Positions 2,957 to 20,905 of a DNA stretch of 64,000 bases are shown here, piece after piece. Numbering within the stretch: position 1 is the stretch's first letter; every line of letters begins with the position of its first letter. The notes under the pieces are model-generated. The model did no database searches, was not told the DNA's origin, and was given only the letters and a program-made list of their open reading frames with translations. This DNA is from Eudorina sp. 2006-703-Eu-15. Taxonomy: Eukaryota; Chlorophyta; Chlorophyceae; Chlamydomonadales; Volvocaceae. The position numbers and the translations under genes were made by a program. The stretch spans positions 124,001 to 188,000 of the forward strand of contig BDSI01000172.1 of NCBI GenBank assembly GCA_003117195.1, given 5' to 3'.

Positions 2957-3255
2957 TCAAACCCTACGGAGCAACGCTGACGGTCGGCGCAGATAGGGTG
3001 AAAAAGGAGTCCATCCCAGGCCGTAGTTACGACTTCGAAACCACTCTGACCTCAGACCGCATCTGCCGCCGACAGCAGAGGCACTGTCAAGCTTGACCCC
3101 GCTGCATCCGCTGACCGCTGCTGCGCCGCTGGCCCGCCTCCCGGAAATCCACCCCTCCGCCCGCCTCCCCTCCCCCTCCCGACCCGACCCCGACGGCCCC
3201 GCCCCCGATGACCCCTGCCCCTGCAGCTGTTGCCACCGCTGCTGCTGCTGCTGCT

Positions 3256-3286
<31 letters not shown>

Positions 3287-6200
3287 ATGTCGCTGCTGTT
3301 GCTCCTGCGCGCGGCTCTCTTCGGCCGCGCGCTCCACCGCCCGCGCGGCAGCGTGGGCTCGGGCGCGGCGCGCACAGGCGGCCACGACCATGCTCACCAG
3401 CATGAAGGCGATGCCCACAACGGCGCCCAGCATGAAGGCCTGGCCCACGCTGACGTCAAAGAAGAGCACGCAGACAATCATAGTGACCCAGGTGGCGCGG
3501 ATGCAGTCGAAGCAGAAGTCCGCGAAGTTGGGCTCGGCGGCAGTGTTGAATGCGGGCTGGTTGCGGCGGCGGGCAGCCTCGCGCGCGGCGAGGACCTCAG
3601 GCGGGATGGCCGGCAGGTTGGCAATGACCTGCTTGCAGATGTCGCACACGACGTCCCCCTTGTGCTGAACGGTGTGGAGAGGAAGAGCGCAAGGGGGCAG
3701 GGAAAGGGGGTGTGCGACCGGAAGGAGAGCCGAGGCGCGAGGCCGCGGGTGGCGACGAGGGGTGTACGCCATGGCTGCTGGAAGACGCACACGTCCCACT
3801 GCCGCACCTAAATGGGGCGATAGGAGCCGCCGCCGCTCCGCAGAATTCAAGGATTGCATCGACATGCAGGAAACCCCAACCCCCCTGGCACACGCAAACC
3901 AGGCCGTGTGTGCGCGCGCATTGACCACAGGACCAGGGGACAGCGGGTACCCGGGAGAAACGCTCTGGGCAAAGACCCTTCCCGACGTCATCACACTCTG
4001 AAACCACCCGCCGCCGTCTGTTGCAACCTCGACTGCACCCCGGCCCACCCAGATAACTAACTTTTCGCCACCTCACCCGCAATCCAGACTCGCAACCTGG
4101 AAATCCCTCCCACTCTTCAGTTGCGTCCGGCGGATAAACGCACACCAGTCCGCACCCCCCCCTGACCCCCTACATGCCCCCCATGTCCCCCGATCTCCTA
4201 TCCCCAACTGGCCCCCGACGGCACTCACGTGGCTCCACTCGATGGCGCACTTGCGGTGCCGCATCGACACCTCTCCCTTGCAGGCGCACTGCAGCGATAT
4301 CGCGTCGCCGCTCTCAAACTCCTCCGGCGTCAGCACCTCCAGACAGATCAGGCAGATGGGCAGCCCACCCGCGGGGCCACTGCCCGCGGCCGCCTGCACA
4401 CCGACGGCGCTCGCAGAGGCGCTCGTGGCGCTGTCGGCGCGGCTGAGACTGCGGCCACCGGCCTGGGGCCCCGAGAAGTAGGCGTTCCCCCCGCGGACGC
4501 TGCTGTTGAAGAACGCGGTGCCGCCGCGGAGGCTGTTGCTGCCCGTGGGGCTGGAAGCCAGCGCCACGCTGCGGGGCAGGCTCCAGGTGCCTGGGGGGAG
4601 GGGGGATAGGGAGTTGCCGGGGCCGGGGGCGCGGGCGGGTCGAGGGCAGGGCATGGGGCGGCGAGCTTGGCAGCCGGGCGGCGCAGAAGGGCATGGCGGC
4701 TCGTGGCGGGAGGAAAGAGGGCATGGCGGGGTGTGCTGACAGCATGACTTCGGGGGGAGGCGCAAGGGCGATGCAGATGTGCAGGTACAGTAGGTATACA
4801 TGTTATGTCATGGTATGTCGAGAAGCCGCCCTCGCCCTCCCCTGGATAAGCATTCATGTGGAGCGTCGCGCTGTCGCCGTGCAGCGCGCCGCCTCCGCCT
4901 CCACCTCCGTAGGTTCCCGCAGGAGCCACTCCTCCGTCCTCTTCCTCCTCCTCCCGCGGGAAACACGCTCACGTGCGGAGACCGAGGCCGCCATCCAGTC
5001 ATCCCTTGGCCAGCGCCATCGGCCCCGACGTATCAGCCGCCCCTGACGTCCACCCATTGGCATCACCCACCCATTGGCATTATTGGCATCACCTACCGTC
5101 CTCCCTCCAAACCCCGCCAAGCAGCCCGAGTGAGCCCCGGCTCGCAACTGCCACTCACCCAAGCTGGCGGGCAAACTGGTCGCCAACACGGCCAGATCCG
5201 CCAGGTCCGGCTCCCCGCCCCGCCTCGCCGCTGGCACCGCCCTCGCAACAGCGCCTTCGCTGTCCGACCCCGCCGCGCCGCCTGGCCCGCCCGCGCCGCC
5301 GCCGCCGCCCCCGCCGCCGCGGCTGCCGCCGCCCACCACCGCCCCAGCGGCGCGCATCCACATCCCCAGCCCACCACCCAGGCTGGCGCTGGTGCTCGTA
5401 CACGCGCCGCTGCTGTCACTCCCGCCATTGACTGACGTCCGGGGCGGCCGCCTCGTACCGACCCGCGGGCCCGCAGCCGAGGAGGACGACGGCAGGTCCG
5501 AGCCCGGCGGCACGGGGGCGGTGGCGGCGCCGCCACCGCCGGCACTGCCCATGAGCGCAGAGCCGGTTTGTTGAAAGCTGGTCGATCGCTTCATTTTGCT
5601 GTTCAGCCCACCGGTGGCTTTGGTGAGGATGGAGCTGGCTGAGGCGTTGGCGCGGGCGCGGAGGAGGGAGGAGGAGGAGGGCAGGCTGCCGAAGGTGGTC
5701 GGCTCCCCGGGGAGGTAGTACCTGCTAGGGAGGGCAGGGAGCGGAAGCGGTCGCGGATAGGCCAACCGCCCAGGGGTGCCAAGCCAGCTGCCTTACACAA
5801 GCTGTCTGTCACCATGACCATCGACTCCACCTCAACAAATGCGCAGTTGGCAGGATACACGCAGCGCAGCCGCCGGGCCATGGTGCGGCGGATGCAGCCC
5901 GGGGTTTGAGGTGGGGGTGGCCTGCACTCTTCTTTTCTGATCAACCGCCGCCCGTCTGTGTCTTGGGTCTGGGTGTGAGTTGTTGTTCCTTCTCCTTCCC
6001 ATCTCACCTGTCGCGCCCGGCGAAGGGCAGCGAGTCGGGTCCGTGGAAGGACACATCGGGACTGGTCAGGAGGGCTCCGCCGCGAGGCAGCGACCCACCC
6101 GCCGGCGCGTTCCGCGACCCGAACAACGAACCCAGCATCGAGCCCTGCAGCAGGCTAGTGCTCAGCACACCACCACCGCCACCGCCGCCGGCGCCGCCGG

Positions 6201-8691: not shown

Positions 8692-9476
8692 GGGGGTGGG
8701 CAACTGCGGCTGCGCCGTAGGAACCCATGGCGACCTGCGGGCAGATGCGTATTGTGTGCAAAAGTGACAAGAGAAACCCCGCCGTCCTAACAAGAACAAC
8801 CTTTGGGTATACACATTTTCGCGGTAGCTTCAACAAGTGTCAGCCCGAAGTTGGTGATTTAGCAAAAATGAACGAAAATATTTTGCGCTTTTGCACCAGA
8901 CCAACCTTGATCGGCCAAGCGCCTGCTGGAGGCCACCAACGGTTGGATTCCGTTTCCCTGCGACACAAAAAGCCACAGCCATGTCATTGAGTTTGGCAGA
9001 GATACAAAAAGGCACCTCGAAAAAGCAACCACCGGAACTGCGCACGGGGCAACGCACCCTTGCCTCGCTCGTTGATCTCCATTCGTTTCTAAGAGGAAAT
9101 ATTAAGAAATAACGTCTTGATGCCCCTTCAATTATAAATTACGGCATTCAAGGTAAGTGTATGCACACGGCACGCTACCTTGCTGTGTGATCTAGGTGAC
9201 GAGATAAAAGCGGAAGTTGCCGCAGTTCCCTAATTGCTAAAGAAATGATAACAACCTTGCGATGTGCGTGCGCGATGTGGAACTTGGGCGTACGGCATGT
9301 CAACGAACAACCTCGTCAACTGCTGCCACCTGGTCTCTACGGAGCCTACCTGCCTAGACGCTCTAGCCTATTGCCCAAACACCAGAGACTCTTCCTGAAC
9401 GCGATCACGTATGATGTCAAAGGTGCACTTGTGACACGTGCTATGACTTCTGTTTGGGGATACAACCGATCCAATA
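8692..9476. promoter_or_regulatory. divergent intergenic region
   Basis: About 785 bp between the start of the RING-CH gene (-) and the start of the ankyrin-like gene (+). It is visibly richer in A/T than the flanking exons, as expected for promoters and leaders of both genes. No specific motif is claimed. The - strand frame at 8830-9057 is not supported as coding. Confidence 0.4.
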
Positions 9477-11735
9477 ATGTCCGAAGAAAGATCGAGTCGT
9501 AGCTTCTTAGACGTGATCACGGTCCTTGGGTTGGCAGATCACGTTGTCGGTTTCCTTCACGCTGCGGAGGCAGCCTGCACCTTCCCGCTTATCAACAAGG
9601 CCTGTCGAGATGCCTACACCGGCACCAGAACGGTCTTGCTGTCGCAGCCCGTGCCGCACCACGCCTTCGTCTGGCGCTGGGGCCGCCCGGAGGCCACACG
9701 GGACCTTACCCGCGCACAGCGCCTGACCCTGCTCAGCCTGACGGCCCAGAGCGGCAGCCTGGAGAACCTCGAGGTGGCCGCCGCCGCGGCAGGTTGCATC
9801 CTAGAGCAGCGCACGGTGATGGACGCCGCCGCGTCCGGAGGCCACCTGCACGTGTGCCGGATGCTGTCCGCGCGTTTCTGCCCGGTCAGCTTCTCGACCG
9901 CGTTCGCGGCCGCGGCAGCCGGTCAGCTGGACGCCGTGCGCTGGGTACTATGCGAGAACAAGGTGCTTCACAGCGCAACCAGGGGACTGTGGGGCGCCGC
10001 GGCCCGCGGCGGCCACCGCCACGTGTGCGAGTGGCTGCTGGCGGAGGGTTTTCTCTGCTCCCACGTCGCCGAAGTGATGTGCACTGCCGCAGGGCTCGGC
10101 CACGTCGACCTCTTGGACTGGCTTTTAGACACCCTGCCCGCGAATCTTGACGATGACGGACTAATCCACGTTGTCAGAGGGGCGCTGGAGGGCTGCAGTC
10201 TCGAGACGGTGAGGAGGCTGTCCGACCGGTTGGGGGTGCCGGACTGCTGCGTCATGGCCGTTCGGCAGAGGCTGCCGGACCTGGTCGCGGCGGCCGTCAG
10301 CAGCCGCCTGTCCGACTGGCGGGACAAGCTGCAGTGGGTGGAGACGAGGTTCGGGACGTGCCCGCTGAGCCAACTGGCTCCGGTGGAGGAGATCCTGAAG
10401 CGTCACGACCACATGGACCGGCTGCAGGCGCTGCAGCAGCGGGGTCCCCTGGGGCAGTTGAGGCACCTCATTAAAACCGTGATGGAGGCGGCGCGTCTCG
10501 GTCAGCTCCCCGTGCTGCGGCTGCTGCTGCTGCAGCCCTCGGATGACGGCCGCGGCGGAGAGAGCTCCCTTACCTCGGATGCCAAACATGCAGTTGTGGG
10601 CTTGGCAGCCAACAAGGGCCACCTGGAGGTGTTGGAGGAGCTGGCGGCGCGCGGCTGGCCGGTGCGGACCGACACCGTGCTGGACGCGGCGGTATGTGGG
10701 TGCTTGACGACGCTGAAGTGGGCGGCAGCGGCGCCGGCGGCGCCGGCGGTGTGGAGGGACGCGCTTCAGGGGGCGCTGCAGCTGCGAGATGGTGCCGAGC
10801 TGGTGGAGCACGCGGCATGTTCCGGCAGCCTGGAGCTGGTGATGTGGCTGCGGCAGCAGCAGGAGTGCGCGTGGGACGAGCGGGCGTTTTGGGCGGCTGT
10901 TCAATTCGGCGACGTGGCGCTTCTGCAGTGGATGGTGGAGCAGGGCTGCCCCATGGGGGTGAGCTGGGTCCGCGTCGGATGGGGGATTGGCAGCCCGGCC
11001 CTGCGTTCGGCGACTGTGAGGCTGGCTGGGAGCCCTCACATCATTAGTCATAAGGCAGCCTGCCGAATGTCGTACTGGAGACTGGGCACCCCCGGCAAGT
11101 TTGGGGATGCACGGAAAGAGCACTTGTTTTGACGCATCAAAAGTCTCCTCGCATGTGTACCACGCTGTGCGGCTGCGTGGTAGCTCTACGGCAGCTAACA
11201 CGCAGCCGAATAGATACCTCCAAAATGCTTAGAACGACGTCGATGTCCCTTCATCCTTGACTCTAACCACACCTGCTCGGTGCAGGAGATCTGCGCCGTA
11301 GCCGCAAATCCGCTGACCGTCAATCCTCGGATCGCAACTCCGTGACTTACCCAAGCCCGTTCCCTCCGCCCCTGCAACCTACCCACCCCGGCCCCGAGCT
11401 CCCCCCACGTCCAGGACCCCGTCGAGCTGTTAGCGCACGCCGCCATCACCGGCGACCTGGCCACCCTGCGCTGCCTGCGGCGGCTGGGATGCCCCTGGGG
11501 CCCGCGGACTGACGGCACCGGCGTGTTCGCTCGGGCGCTGGCGGACAGAGCTCGCTTTGCTGTGCTGCGTTGGCTGGTCGCGGAGGGCTGCCCGGTGGAC
11601 TGGGGCCTGGCGGCGGAGGCGGTGGTGGCGCGGAACGACCCGGAGGGTGTCGCGATCCGGGAGTGGGTAGGGGGTCACCTGCCGGTGGGAGGTCACGTGG
11701 GGGAGGCGTCCCGGGGAGCGCAGCCACAGCCGTGA
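9477..11735 (+). CDS. ankyrin-repeat-like protein
   Basis: Two exons, 9477-10958 and 11415-11735, joined in phase 0 by a GTGAGC donor and a CCACGTCCAG acceptor, giving 600 residues. Seen: from about residue 80 onwards, helical repeats of the type AAASGGHLHVCRML, AAARGGHRHVCEWLL, AANKGHLEVLEEL and AACSGSLELVMWL. They often end in the Chlamydomonas-style turn GCPMG, GCPWG or GCPVDW. Known: this loose ankyrin family is expanded in volvocine algae and acts as a protein-binding scaffold. The first ~60 residues (LADHVVGFL... INKACRDAY) resemble a degenerate F-box-like segment, which is inference only. The ATG at 9477 opens the frame with A at -3. No partner or substrate can be named. Confidence 0.82.
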
Positions 11736-16000: not shown

Positions 16001-18052
16001 CCGTCCCTGGAGTGACCAAAGAGTACGACAGCGCGACGTGCGGACGTGGAGACAGGATGTGGTACGGACAGATACATCCGGTGATCGATCAGACGAAAGT
16101 GCGCCGTGTGAAAGCAGGCCAGTCGGTGGCCGTGGTACGGTGCCGTACACTCACGTGGCCAGCGCGTGGCAGTAGACGGCGGTGACCCCGTGCAGTGCGT
16201 CCCCCAAGCCCGCGGGGTCATCCAGATCCCCCGTGACGACCTGCAGTACAGTACGACGTCAGGTCTGATGCTGTACCGGCTGCTTCCGCTGTAAATCCCA
16301 ACGAGTCGATCCCAAGTTGAAAACCGACCGAGATCCAGCAACGGGGGAGACCGCCGCGAGCGCTACCGGGACGCTTCAACCAGGGTGGCTATCTTAAGAT
16401 ATCAATATATATTCGGCCGAAAACCTTGCGTTTTGATAGATACTTTCCCTCGGTGGGAAAATGGGGTTTTAGATACTCATGGCCTCTCGCACGGGGAAAA
16501 GCCCCCTTTGAGTAGATAAAATGCCGGCAAAAGCTCCCTCCGACAGATACTTTCAGCACGATTGGGCAAGGAGTATCTCCGGCCGTAGATACTCCGCAAA
16601 ATAAGATAGCCACCCTGGCTTCAACATCCCCGTCGTCGCCCACCACCGATACCTACCTACCCCCCTGCCCTTCTACCCCCTAAACCCCCCCTTACCCGGA
16701 CAGCAGGTATGTCAACCCAACCTCAGGGACGGCGTGATCGCAAATGCTGCAGCCGCCGCCGCCTGCCCGCCAAACGGCCAACGAACCCTGGCGACAGTTA
16801 CTTTGATGTTTTTTCTGTTGGTCTCCACCTCTCACGTCCGCCGCAAACTCGCCCTAGGCTGTCCCACACCCGGCAGAATTGCTCTCAACGGGTGTGGAAG
16901 CTGTTGCGACACGCTCCCTCGAGCGGCAGCCCCACATGGCCCACCTGCACACCCGCCGGTAGCGACCTGGCCGCTGCGCCCCTGGGGTTGCGGGTCATTG
17001 CCAGCAGCCGGTGGGAGGTCCGACCGGGGCCCATGATTGTGAGGAGGCCCTGCGGGGGGACGGACGAACGGACCAGCGGGAGGGGTCAGCGAGTGCGTGG
17101 AGGTCGTTCGGGGACTTCAGCAAACCAGCCCCTGTAAGCCACCCCATGAATCCCTATCGAGCCGCATTGCGGGGCTGATTACCGGTACCGTGAAACAATA
17201 TACAGCAACGTCACAGGGCCTAAACCCAACGGGACGCATACGCACCTGCAGTGCACTCCTGACGAGGCCAAGAGTCGCAGTACCCGGCAGCAAGACCGGG
17301 GGGAATGGGAGGGCGGCGGTTACTCAAAGGCAGCAAGCGCATCGGCAGCAGCAGGTAACAGACGCGGTGCGGACGGATCCGCGCGCCGAATGGTTGACAG
17401 AGTGATTCGTTCAGCGCGGGGGCAGGCCCTGAAGCGGCAGTTGGGTGCCGTTTCCGTACGGCAGACACGTGAAGCTCACGTGATTACGACGAGGAAACGC
17501 CTGCGACGGCTCACGAGCCGCACATGCCGACCCGTGGTTCCTTCCGATTGGGGCATTCGTTTGCACTGCAGTAGACGCCCCAGCCATCAAGCTAAAGCCC
17601 AAGGCGATCGATCGATCGTACGTACGTCGTACAGGCGAACCTAAACAAGCAGTAACATCACCGCACCTGCCCGTGACGCCGGTGATGCCGATCAACAAGA
17701 TGCGAGCGTCCGGGGGAATGTCCACAATGTCACTTTCGGCGGCGGTCGCAGGGAACGTGGAGGGCGTCGCCGCCGCCGCTGGCTGCGGGCCACGCCCGCC
17801 GCTGCCGCCACGGCTGCTGGCGCTGCCGTACATCGAGGGCGGTGCTGACCGGCAGCTGGAGACTGAGGCCGATGGGGTCGGGCGCGGATGCCGACTGACG
17901 GGGGCGGAAGTCGAAGCGACGGGACTTGGACGGAGGGCGCGAAGCCGGGGGCGCGCCGTCGCGAGCGCGGGGGCGGGCGCCGCGAGTTGGGAGCGGTGGC
18001 GAGGCGACGCGATGCCCGCGACAGAGCCACGGATTCCTCTGAGGGTTGTCAT
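13003..18052 (-). CDS. NmrA-like NAD(P)-binding protein, plastid-targeted
   Basis: Eleven exons fit in phase: 18052-17667, 17258-17246 (13 bp), 17049-16945, 16240-16155, 16006-15936, 15464-15341, 14823-14740, 14479-14248, 13946-13864, 13613-13562, 13176-13003; 469 residues. Seen: an Arg/Ser/Ala-rich N-terminus of ~100 residues typical of an algal chloroplast transit peptide, then the Rossmann start ILLIGITGVTGR, LLAMTRNP, a VVTGDLDDP motif, VRLILYNSSGG, the MFMEELW segment and QLVAARDLG. This is the NmrA order. Known: NmrA-like proteins are atypical short-chain dehydrogenases that bind NAD(P) and act as redox sensors or reductases. The usual catalytic YxxxK is not evident. Substrate unknown. 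A Gly/Pro-rich insertion of ~25 residues follows AGYLL. Only the ATG choice and the transit peptide are inference. Confidence 0.92.
16381..16617. mobile_element. hAT-type MITE, copy 1
   Basis: A 237-bp element bounded by inverted repeats starting CAGGGTGGCTATCTTA and flanked by the perfect 8-bp duplication GCTTCAAC (16373-16380 and 16618-16625). Eight-base duplications and a CAGGG terminus are hallmarks of the hAT superfamily. It is AT-richer than its surroundings, has no coding capacity, and lies within the third intron of the NmrA-like gene. It is in the opposite orientation to copy 2. Confidence 0.9.
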
Positions 18053-18598
18053 GCTCAGCGCCAAAGGGGAACCGGAGAGCGTTGGATGGCTGCAATCCGG
18101 CTTGCAGTCTGAGCTTCTGAGGACTGAGGAGGATCAAGCGTTCCTGAGCCTCAAGGACGAACAAGGCCCGTGGGTATGAGGAAGTCGAGCTGCGATCTTA
18201 GTTGCCTTGTTCAGATTTTACAGTGGGGATGGATTTGTACACATTTCAGGAGGTTTTTACTGGCCAAGGGTTTGCGTAACACGTTGGCGTTCTGACGGAA
18301 ACGATCCGACGGTGAACCTCCCGAGCGGGATCCGGGATAACGGTCGAGATGCGCGATCATTTCAAAATGGGCAAGACATAGTAAGGTATTGTTTCAGCTG
18401 AACAATAAAATTTTCCGAGGTCGAGTTTTCTTCTCGGGGCAACGAGGGAGTCGGAATCGGCAACCCTAGCTTTCGACGCCGGGCCTATGACTTGGCGTTC
18501 GAGGACCATGAAATGCCAATTTGAACTAAAGATCGTGCATTGGTATACAAACTTGAAACGTTCATGGTCGGATCAGGGTTCGCCCTCCCACATCTAGC
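18053..18598. promoter_or_regulatory. upstream region of the NmrA-like gene
   Basis: About 545 bp of lower-GC sequence between the NmrA-like start codon and the first palindrome. No coding frame is supported. It probably carries the promoter and leader of the NmrA-like gene. Confidence 0.4.
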
Positions 18599-19142
18599 CG
18601 CCGGCACCTCTCTCAAGAGTTGATAGCGCCTGACGGCGCCCATCCACAAAAGGGCCTTGTGGGCTCCCCTTGGCCTGTCACGAGGGAACTATGCCGTGCA
18701 CAGGGTCACAGGCTTTCAGCCCACATCGTTACGAGAGCGGGTTGTTTGGATTCCTGGCCCGCTTGTTGGAGGACTGCAAGGCTGGGGCTGGGCAGGGGTA
18801 CCTGCGTTGTCGTGCCCTTTATGCCCCCGCGACTGGGCTCACCTCCGACGTGGGTCGGCTGATCGATTTCGGCGCTGGGGCAGAGTGGACGGAGGTGAGC
18901 CCAGTCGCGGGGGCATAAAGGGCACGACATTGCAGGTACCCCTGCCCGGCCAGCCCCAGCCTTGCAGTCCTCCAACAAGCGGGCCAGGAATCCAAACAAC
19001 CCGCTCTCGTAACGATATGGGCTGAAAGCCTGTGACCCTGTGCACGGCATAGTTCCCTCGTGACAGGCCAAGGGGAGCCCACAAGGCCCTTTTGTGGATG
19101 GGCGCCGTCAGGCGCTATCAACTCTTGAGAGAGGTGCCGGCG
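18599..19142. repeat. long palindrome 1 (arms ~250 bp)
   Basis: Left arm 18599-18847 is the reverse complement of right arm 18890-19142, with only a few differences (for example CGTTGT against CGACAT near the inner end, and a short indel in the GGCTGGGGC stretch). The spacer is 18848-18889. The arms include CGCCTGACGGCGCCC near the ends. It abuts palindrome 2 directly. Confidence 0.93.
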
Positions 19143-19966
19143 GTGGTGTTCCTCCGGCAGCACCCACTGTTGGTTGTGTGGCGGGTTCAAATCCCGGGAA
19201 CGCAATGTATCGGTTGGCATGGTTTAATTTGGGTTTGGGCGTGTGGGCTGAAGACGACAGCAAGAGCGAGCCTTCTGTGGAGCGACACGGTCTTCTGTCG
19301 TACGGCGGAGCGTCTTCTGTCGTACGGCGGAGCGAGTACCCACCCGCCGAGTACATGGGTACAAGGACACGATATGAGGACACGATTTCTCTTAGCGGCC
19401 GGTGGCACGGTTCAGCTCCGCCACCTGTCAGTCAGCCACGCGAGGAAGGCTGCAAGCGGGCCCGAAGCAAACTGCTCCTCCCCGCTGGGTGAGGCTGTCA
19501 GCCGCAACCGCGCGGTGAGGCTCAGCACTACGACGTGGGCCGGCTGATCGATTTCGGCGCTGGGGCAGAGTGGTCGTAGTGCTGAGCCTCACCGCGCAGT
19601 CGCGGCTGATCGCCTCACCCAGTGGGGAGGAGCAGTTTGCTTCGGGGCCCGCTTGCAGCCTTCCTCGCGTGGCTGACTGACAGGCGGCGGAGCTGAAGCG
19701 TGCCACCGGCCGCTAAGAGAAATCGTGTCCTCATATCGTGTCCTTGTACCCATGTACTCGGCGGGTGGGTACTCGCTCCGCCGTACGACAGAAGACGCTC
19801 CGCCGTACGACAGAAGACCATGTCGCTCCACAGAAGGCTCTTGCTGTCGTCTTCAGCCCACACGCCCAAACCCAAATTAAACCATGCCAACCGATACATT
19901 GCGTTCCCGGGATTTGAACCCGCCACCCAACCAATGGTGGGTGCTGCCGGAGGAACACCACCGCAC
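19140..19966. repeat. long palindrome 2 (arms ~390 bp)
   Basis: Left arm 19140-19533 is the reverse complement of right arm 19574-19966 with scattered mismatches and small indels. The spacer 19534-19573 is the same ~40-bp sequence as in palindrome 1 apart from one T/C change. Each arm holds a doubled ~23-bp unit (CTTCTGTCGTACGGCGGAGC) and a tRNA T-arm-like segment. Short apparent ORFs on both strands of this region are mirror images of the same sequence and are not genes. Confidence 0.93.
19181..19198 (+). other. tRNA T-arm / B-box-like motif
   Basis: GCGGGTTCAAATCCCGGG matches a T-arm stem-loop and the RNA polymerase III B-box. The mirror copy lies at about 19909-19926 on the - strand. No acceptor stem, D-arm or anticodon arm could be found, so this is not a complete tRNA. 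It may be a remnant of a tRNA-derived SINE within the palindrome arm. Confidence 0.45.
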
Positions 19967-20905
19967 GTCATCCTAACAATTTGCCTCACTCCTGGACAAC
20001 ACAGCCCCACCGTTTCAGCCCCAGACGTGACCAGACCCGCAGAGTGCCACCAACAGGCGGGCCAGCGTGGGGTTCACGTCCTGCACGTCCCTGCCTTACA
20101 CCCGCGGCCGCCTTGGGAGCGTGGCCGCCCCCAGCCCCCAGCAGACCCAACAGCATTTGAAATATAGCCCAGCGTCTTCATCCGCTTTTGCTCCGAGCCT
20201 GCTTCCCCCGCCAGGGCCTCCCCAACGCTTGGCCAGTCCGCTAAGTTCTGCCGCCCGATTTATCCGATGACATCGCAAACCACGCTCGCAACACACATAC
20301 GAGGGATTACAGTGTGGGCAATATGCCGTACACATGCCGTATACTTGACTGCCGGGGGCCCCTAGACGCGCAGAACCCACCTGCTGCTATTACACCAACC
20401 TGCCCGCCTCGGAAGAAGCGAACCATCCTCAGTCCGAATGGCTCGTCCTGCAGGTCCTTTGCGGGCCCCACCGGCCAACTGCGGACAGTGTTTACCGACC
20501 CAGTTCCCGGAGGCTGGGTCAACTGTAGCGCGTGAAGTCCAACATGATACACGAAAGAAATTGCCCCACGTTGCAAATGTCGGAGGTTAGGGTTGCGGTC
20601 CAGAACAACCCACTGGCCAAGACCGCCGCTTCCCAGGGTCGCCCTTGTGGCCTTCAATCAGTCGTGGCCCTCAAGGCGCCAACACGCATGACAAATTCCG
20701 GTCACTGGCAACAGGCGGATGTGCTCCGGGTACGCTGCAGGGGGGCCCTTGTGCGTCCACACACCGCCAGTTCTCTTCCAGCTGCCAGCTATTCCGTGCA
20801 TCCGTACACTTACTTGGTGATGAGCTGCTCGCCGCCGCCTCCCGTCCGCGCCCCAGTGGCCGTGCCCCGGTCCTCCGCTCCCTCCTTCTTGTCCCGTGAG
20901 CCCGG

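Follow-up and report, generated by a model that had tools for sequence, protein, structure and literature searches.

The window analysed here, a stretch of 64,000 nucleotides from Eudorina sp. 2006-703-Eu-15, carries two adjoining long palindromes at 18598-19964. With the prime denoting a reverse complement, the plus strand of this segment reads X-S-X'-Y'-S-Y, and a common 38-bp core, S, lies at the centre of both palindrome 1 (18598-19143) and palindrome 2 (19140-19964). The outer, left arm of palindrome 1, X (18598-18849, 252 bp), is joined to an undisturbed left flank. It is followed by the first copy of S (18850-18887, plus strand), set within CGAC...GACG, and by the inner arm X' (18888-19143, 256 bp). 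Palindrome 2 begins with its inner arm Y' (19140-19534, plus strand, 395 bp), continues with the second copy of S (19535-19572, plus strand), set within CGAC...GTCG, and ends with the outer, right arm Y (19573-19964, minus strand, 392 bp). There are two copies each of X, S and Y. The first-pass annotation had described the palindromes as abutting. They do adjoin, but they also overlap by the four bases GCGG (19140-19143), a microhomology at the X'/Y' duplication joint that is present in both of the parents reconstructed below.

The two copies of S have the same orientation and differ by a single T/C, which bears out the near-identical common spacer noticed at first. With its flanks, the common centre measures about 46 bp and holds one further difference, an A at 18889 against a T at 19574; the word around both copies extends to CGAC...GWCG. 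In a repeat search of the window, complementarity was 98% in three blocks and 95% and 92% in two inner ones. The only direct repeat that it listed between the two palindromes is a 52-nt centre, in agreement with the initial view that the arms are otherwise unrelated. The left arm of palindrome 2 contains a 22-bp unit, GTCTTCTGTCGTACGGCGGAGC, twice in tandem (19290-19333), and this is mirrored in the right arm.

None of the 10 window ORFs submitted to Pfam overlaps the palindrome locus, and the nearest of them ends at 16150, 2.4 kb to its left. Pfam assigned ankyrin to one of these ORFs (9447-11129), gave a sub-cutoff match for one and no match for eight. The ankyrin ORF has 46 protein relatives among the best 7994 candidates scored; 41 carry the name of a volvocine or related green alga (Gonium, Volvox, Tetrabaena, Pleodorina, Astrephomene, Edaphochlamys and Chlamydomonas are represented) and one that of Phytophthora.

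The right side of the locus lies in a dispersed non-coding repeat with a tRNA T-arm-like motif, to which the outer ca. 170 bp of Y' belong. The unduplicated 5' part of this repeat follows directly on the minus strand (19965-20374), and a match on contig C31 covers 20374-19803 in a single alignment. A search with the right flank together with Y listed 43 non-self matches. Of these, 32 span the edge at 19964 and extend 20 bases or more to either side of it; 12 of the 32 are array copies on contigs C425 and C195. Since Y, judged from these matches across its outer edge, continues into the right flank in members of the repeat family, it is the original arm of palindrome 2, and the left arm Y' is the copy. 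At the left edge of X, no relative runs through into the flank. The outer part of Y is represented by at least 81 matches (self and mirrored ones included), and by at least 45 with the combined query, in both cases among the best 40 candidates scored. Relatives of the part at 19965-20374 are found on C31, C76, C110, C258, C800 and other contigs, and by manual reading the most conserved part of the repeat is the T-arm-like motif, GGGTTCAAATCCCGGGAACGC. With ARAGORN, neither the window nor any of 11 loci yielded a tRNA. Rfam gave only sub-threshold matches for the window (tRNA-Sec with 18.7 bits at a cutoff of 47, mir-1954 with 44.4 at a cutoff of 99) and, for five loci, only miRNA families, all of them below cutoff. 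The label of a tRNA-derived element or SINE was dropped after these results; the sequence may be a tRNA-related repeat of volvocine algae that has not been described before.

A different repeat adjoins the 5' end of the element at 20375-20450 (76 bp), where C20, C25, C3, C81 and C12 match at 87-93%. In loci L021 (C425) and L022 (C195), the motif occurs in arrays with alternating spacings of about 1.31 and 2.05 kb and, once, of 3.6 kb. Near another family member, in locus L030, there are short palindromes at 4471-4503 (33 bp, 97%) and 4868-4922 (55 bp, 84%).

An outgroup copy of the locus is available from the same genome. This segment, L029 (C52:108500-114500), is the sole outgroup, with about 73% identity over the X' match, and an inverted-repeat search found none in it. 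On its plus strand, it carries a Y'-like part (2458-2541, corresponding to the outer end of Y'), an S-like part with flanks (2966-2984) and an X'-like part (3034-3179), each once and in that order. The inner arms at the palindrome locus agree with this order, S being followed by X' and Y' by S. The match of S in L029 spans only about 35 bp, and its orientation was evaluated with controls. S has a local score of 17.0 against L029 in the plus sense and of 9.0 as reverse complement; shuffled L029 segments gave a mean of 9.8 and a maximum of 16.5 in 1000. Only one of 946 other segments reached 17.0, and it came from a locus fetched for its resemblance to S. For the reconstructed locus as a whole, the score against L029 is 91 with S in the plus sense and 71 with S reversed. 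L029 2542-3036, with S in the other sense, scored 19.0, which is not above shuffles (mean 16.5, maximum 28 of 300), and the sequence beyond the X'-like part scored 13.0, again not above shuffles (mean 14.5). Because L029 carries the three parts once each and in this order, the unrearranged locus was most likely Y'-S-X', which on the plus strand is X-S'-Y. By comparison with this one outgroup, from which the ancestral orientation of S is taken, the spacer at the palindrome locus has been flipped.

Compared with such a parent, the locus is a mosaic of four pieces with three joints: X from the plus strand, S-X' from the minus strand, Y'-S from the minus strand and Y from the plus strand. Joints 1 and 3 lie at the short inverted repeat CGAC/GWCG that flanks S, and joint 2, between X' and Y', has the overlap GCGG. 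If the A at 18889 is ancestral, joint 1 overlaps by CG and joint 3 by G, and the inverted repeat is imperfect; if the A is a later change, both overlaps are of 4 bp. The pieces are thus joined at microhomologies of 1-4 bp. On visual inspection, GTGGACGG at the joint of S and X' looks similar to GTGGAAGG in L029, and this favours an ancestral A, but aligners place the bases differently and the likeness counts little.

We consider the locus to be, quite probably, a frozen replicative template-switch rearrangement, which arose either by three switches at once or by tandem duplication followed by inversion. This reading builds on features that are established: the structure itself, the lack of other close copies of S (see below), the parental right edge and the arrangement Y'-S-X', in order as well as orientation, in one relative. 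The plus strand of the parent would have been X-CGWC-S'-GTCG-Y, within a minus-strand copy of the dispersed non-coding repeat. Synthesis of a strand on X would have stalled at the short inverted repeat next to S', continued on the opposite template from the matching sequence across S', and run backwards through S and X'. A jump at GCGG would then have led to the beginning of Y'; after copying of Y' and S, the strand would have returned to Y through the inverted repeat used before, leaving X-S-X'-Y'-S-Y. A two-step route would lead to the same product, with a tandem duplication (joint Y/X at GCGG) and a subsequent inversion of S'-Y-X-S' between the inverted repeats. We infer the number of steps, the path of the polymerase, and replication rather than break repair. 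The centre would be common to both palindromes because entry and exit both went through one and the same inverted repeat. An apparently impossible coincidence, one centre in two unrelated palindromes, would thereby be explained by a mutational path with readable joints. It had been argued from the start that two independent inverted duplications would not give the same centre; this holds, and the centre would mark the site of the event, namely that of the strand switch.

The main weakness of the template-switch reading is its single outgroup copy, and the shortness of the inverted repeat beside S also counts against it. A stable hairpin in the parent was considered but is not supported, 221, 218 and 248 of 300 shuffles being at least as stable. 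The duplex of the inverted-repeat arms itself is only moderately unusual: for arm lengths of 45, 25 and 16, respectively, 59, 29 and 53 of 1000 random places are as stable or more so.

It is tempting to speculate that everything happened in one event, a "spacer-sharing twin palindrome" in which the polymerase enters and leaves the opposite strand via the same inverted repeat, with one tandem back-jump between. This narrower version is a tentative proposal, somewhat less likely to be right than wrong. If it is true, what is left, two unrelated palindromes about one flipped centre, is a fossil in which the orientation of the spacer by itself distinguishes interstrand switching from fold-back.

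The strongest competitor is a bilateral fold-back at a staggered break. Here, the parent would be X-S-Y, both break ends would carry S, and their 3' tails would fold back at CGAC/GTCG and copy their own arms before being joined at GCGG, as in Pol theta-like end joining with templated insertion. It has the same number of joints, a short stem at each S and the 4-bp GCGG joint, it accounts equally well for the common centre and the adjoining palindromes, and fold-back at breaks is documented in yeast in the available parts of two reports (PMC11724301, PMC10622511). It requires, however, that S in the parent was opposite to its orientation in L029, and hence an extra, earlier flip; the likeness between GTGGACGG and GTGGAAGG also speaks against it, with the small weight already given. 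Fold-back, the model considered first, was demoted to a rival on the other orientation of S in L029; we regard it as unlikely. Interstrand switching is preferred over intrastrand fold-back because S is flipped relative to both of its flanks. An outgroup comparison of spacer orientation can thus tell strand-to-strand switching from self-priming.

Replicative template switching, the reading that we prefer, has several described counterparts, which are compared here as far as the accessible portions of the cited papers go. Junctions attributed to ODIRA have inverted repeats of 2-14 bp, which together with the spacer mostly span 40-80 bp (PMC10766183). The locus has palindromic junctions (here CGAC/GWCG around 38 bp) and a short spacer in common with ODIRA and, in our reading, also a switch between strands at a short, interrupted inverted repeat. 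The product of ODIRA, however, is an inverted triplication with an inverted repeat of its own at either boundary (PMC10766183), whereas here there are two copies of everything instead of three with an inverted middle one, and one spacer sequence is used twice with two different arms. In a small inverted triplication (SIT), the DUP/IN/DUP segments measure about 148/160/148 bp, with a spacer of 30 bp and a junction of 6 bp (PMC13334657). The 38-bp spacer, the short junctions and the arms of 250-390 bp found here fall within the sizes reported for SIT and ODIRA junctions (PMC13334657, PMC10766183), which supports the template-switch reading. Unlike in SIT (PMC13334657), no segment is triplicated, and what lies inverted in the middle is a copy in circular permutation, S-X'-Y'-S.

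Inversion of a spacer between inverted repeats has been attributed to intermolecular template switching (PMC8604942), and the flipped spacer would mark such a switch here, too. In the described part of that dataset, spacers are of a few bp and arms of more than 9 bp, in contrast to 38 bp and 250-390 bp of copied arm at the present locus. Serial switches with microhomology are also a feature of MMBIR/FoSTeS and of the four-point model (PMC2621351, PMC7954356), and the latter excludes an intrastrand switch when re-entry is ahead of the exit point (PMC7954356). The gold-standard events in great apes have one inverted fragment of up to 128 bp, whereas about 730 bp in two pieces are inverted here (PMC7954356). 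Fold-back switching with palindrome extension has been reported for rad27 mutants (PMC5677150). From these comparisons, the rearrangement is best read as a relative of ODIRA, of small inverted triplications and of MMBIR. In the literature covered, no pair of adjoining palindromes with unrelated arms around one common, flipped spacer was found described, which is weak evidence of absence.

The arms had initially been called close to perfect. They differ by 15 substitutions over 643 aligned bases and by indels of 4, 4 and 1 bp. Four of the substitutions are in palindrome 1 (one of them being the A/T at its centre) and 11 in palindrome 2. CpG-type transitions account for 8 of the 15, with about 17% of the arm positions being in CpG (binomial P ca. 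0.001), and because of this the arms appear to have aged in vivo. At positions 29 and 30 of palindrome 2, CG is the sequence in 11 of 13 relatives, TG that of one arm and CA that of the other, a pattern that reads as two separate decays after duplication. In palindrome 1, all three difference events that can be polarised with L029 fall in the inner arm, the outer arm X being L029-like at these three. An excess of changes in the inner copies was considered, but with 5 inner against 2 outer polarised events, these are too few for such a claim.

Palindromes are a known class of artefact, and the evidence here is assembled sequence rather than reads, so that an assembly or library chimera has to be weighed. 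The pattern of arm differences is not as expected from a chimera and argues against it: there are 15 substitutions, 8 of CpG type, and three indels, and relatives assign changes to both arms of palindrome 2. Moreover, there are two palindromes with matching joints, and both flanks are continuous in one contig. We consider an artefact very improbable.

A search of the whole genome (181,203,499 bp in 3,033 contigs, with the window in C172) detected no copy of a 43-base spacer pattern beyond the two described here at up to three mismatches. The inner 27 bases of the spacer have two matches in the window, and none of 100 shuffles had any. A looser S pattern (19 positions, 17 fixed bases) has three exact matches in the 181 Mb, the two spacers and C52:111465-111483, which is in L029; at up to two mismatches, it occurs in 43 places versus 9 for a reversed control. 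For arm X, a genome search with 18890-19143 gave no match elsewhere, and longer queries gave one diverged match only, on C52. As this match is lost with the shorter query, the genome search can miss diverged copies. No other palindromes (symmetric match of at least 100 bp, or arms of at least 50 bp within 600 bp) occur in 236 kb, comprising the window and fetched loci, which are non-random and in part overlapping.

S is not a dispersed mobile unit, because the 43-base pattern has no other copy at up to three mismatches. The near-identical centre between unrelated arms had suggested such a unit, a target for a recombinase, or the loop of a family of fold-back transposons able to duplicate the DNA around them, but this is largely refuted and hardly credible: palindromic copies at several sites, as expected for a fold-back or TIR transposon, were not found in these searches, arm X matches nothing but C52, no second such palindrome lies in the non-random 236 kb, and the sole outside exact match of the looser pattern, the diverged relative on C52, sits in a copy that is collinear and non-palindromic.

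Computed RNA folding gives minimum free energies of -588 kcal/mol for palindrome 1 and -876 kcal/mol for palindrome 2. An RNA of either palindrome would be predicted to fold into a very stable hairpin, and formation of a hairpin RNA or of a cruciform is physically plausible. The rearrangement proposed here would thus be a route by which a non-coding repeat of a volvocine green alga gives rise to a long hairpin sequence that is nearly perfect and might serve as a source of small RNAs.
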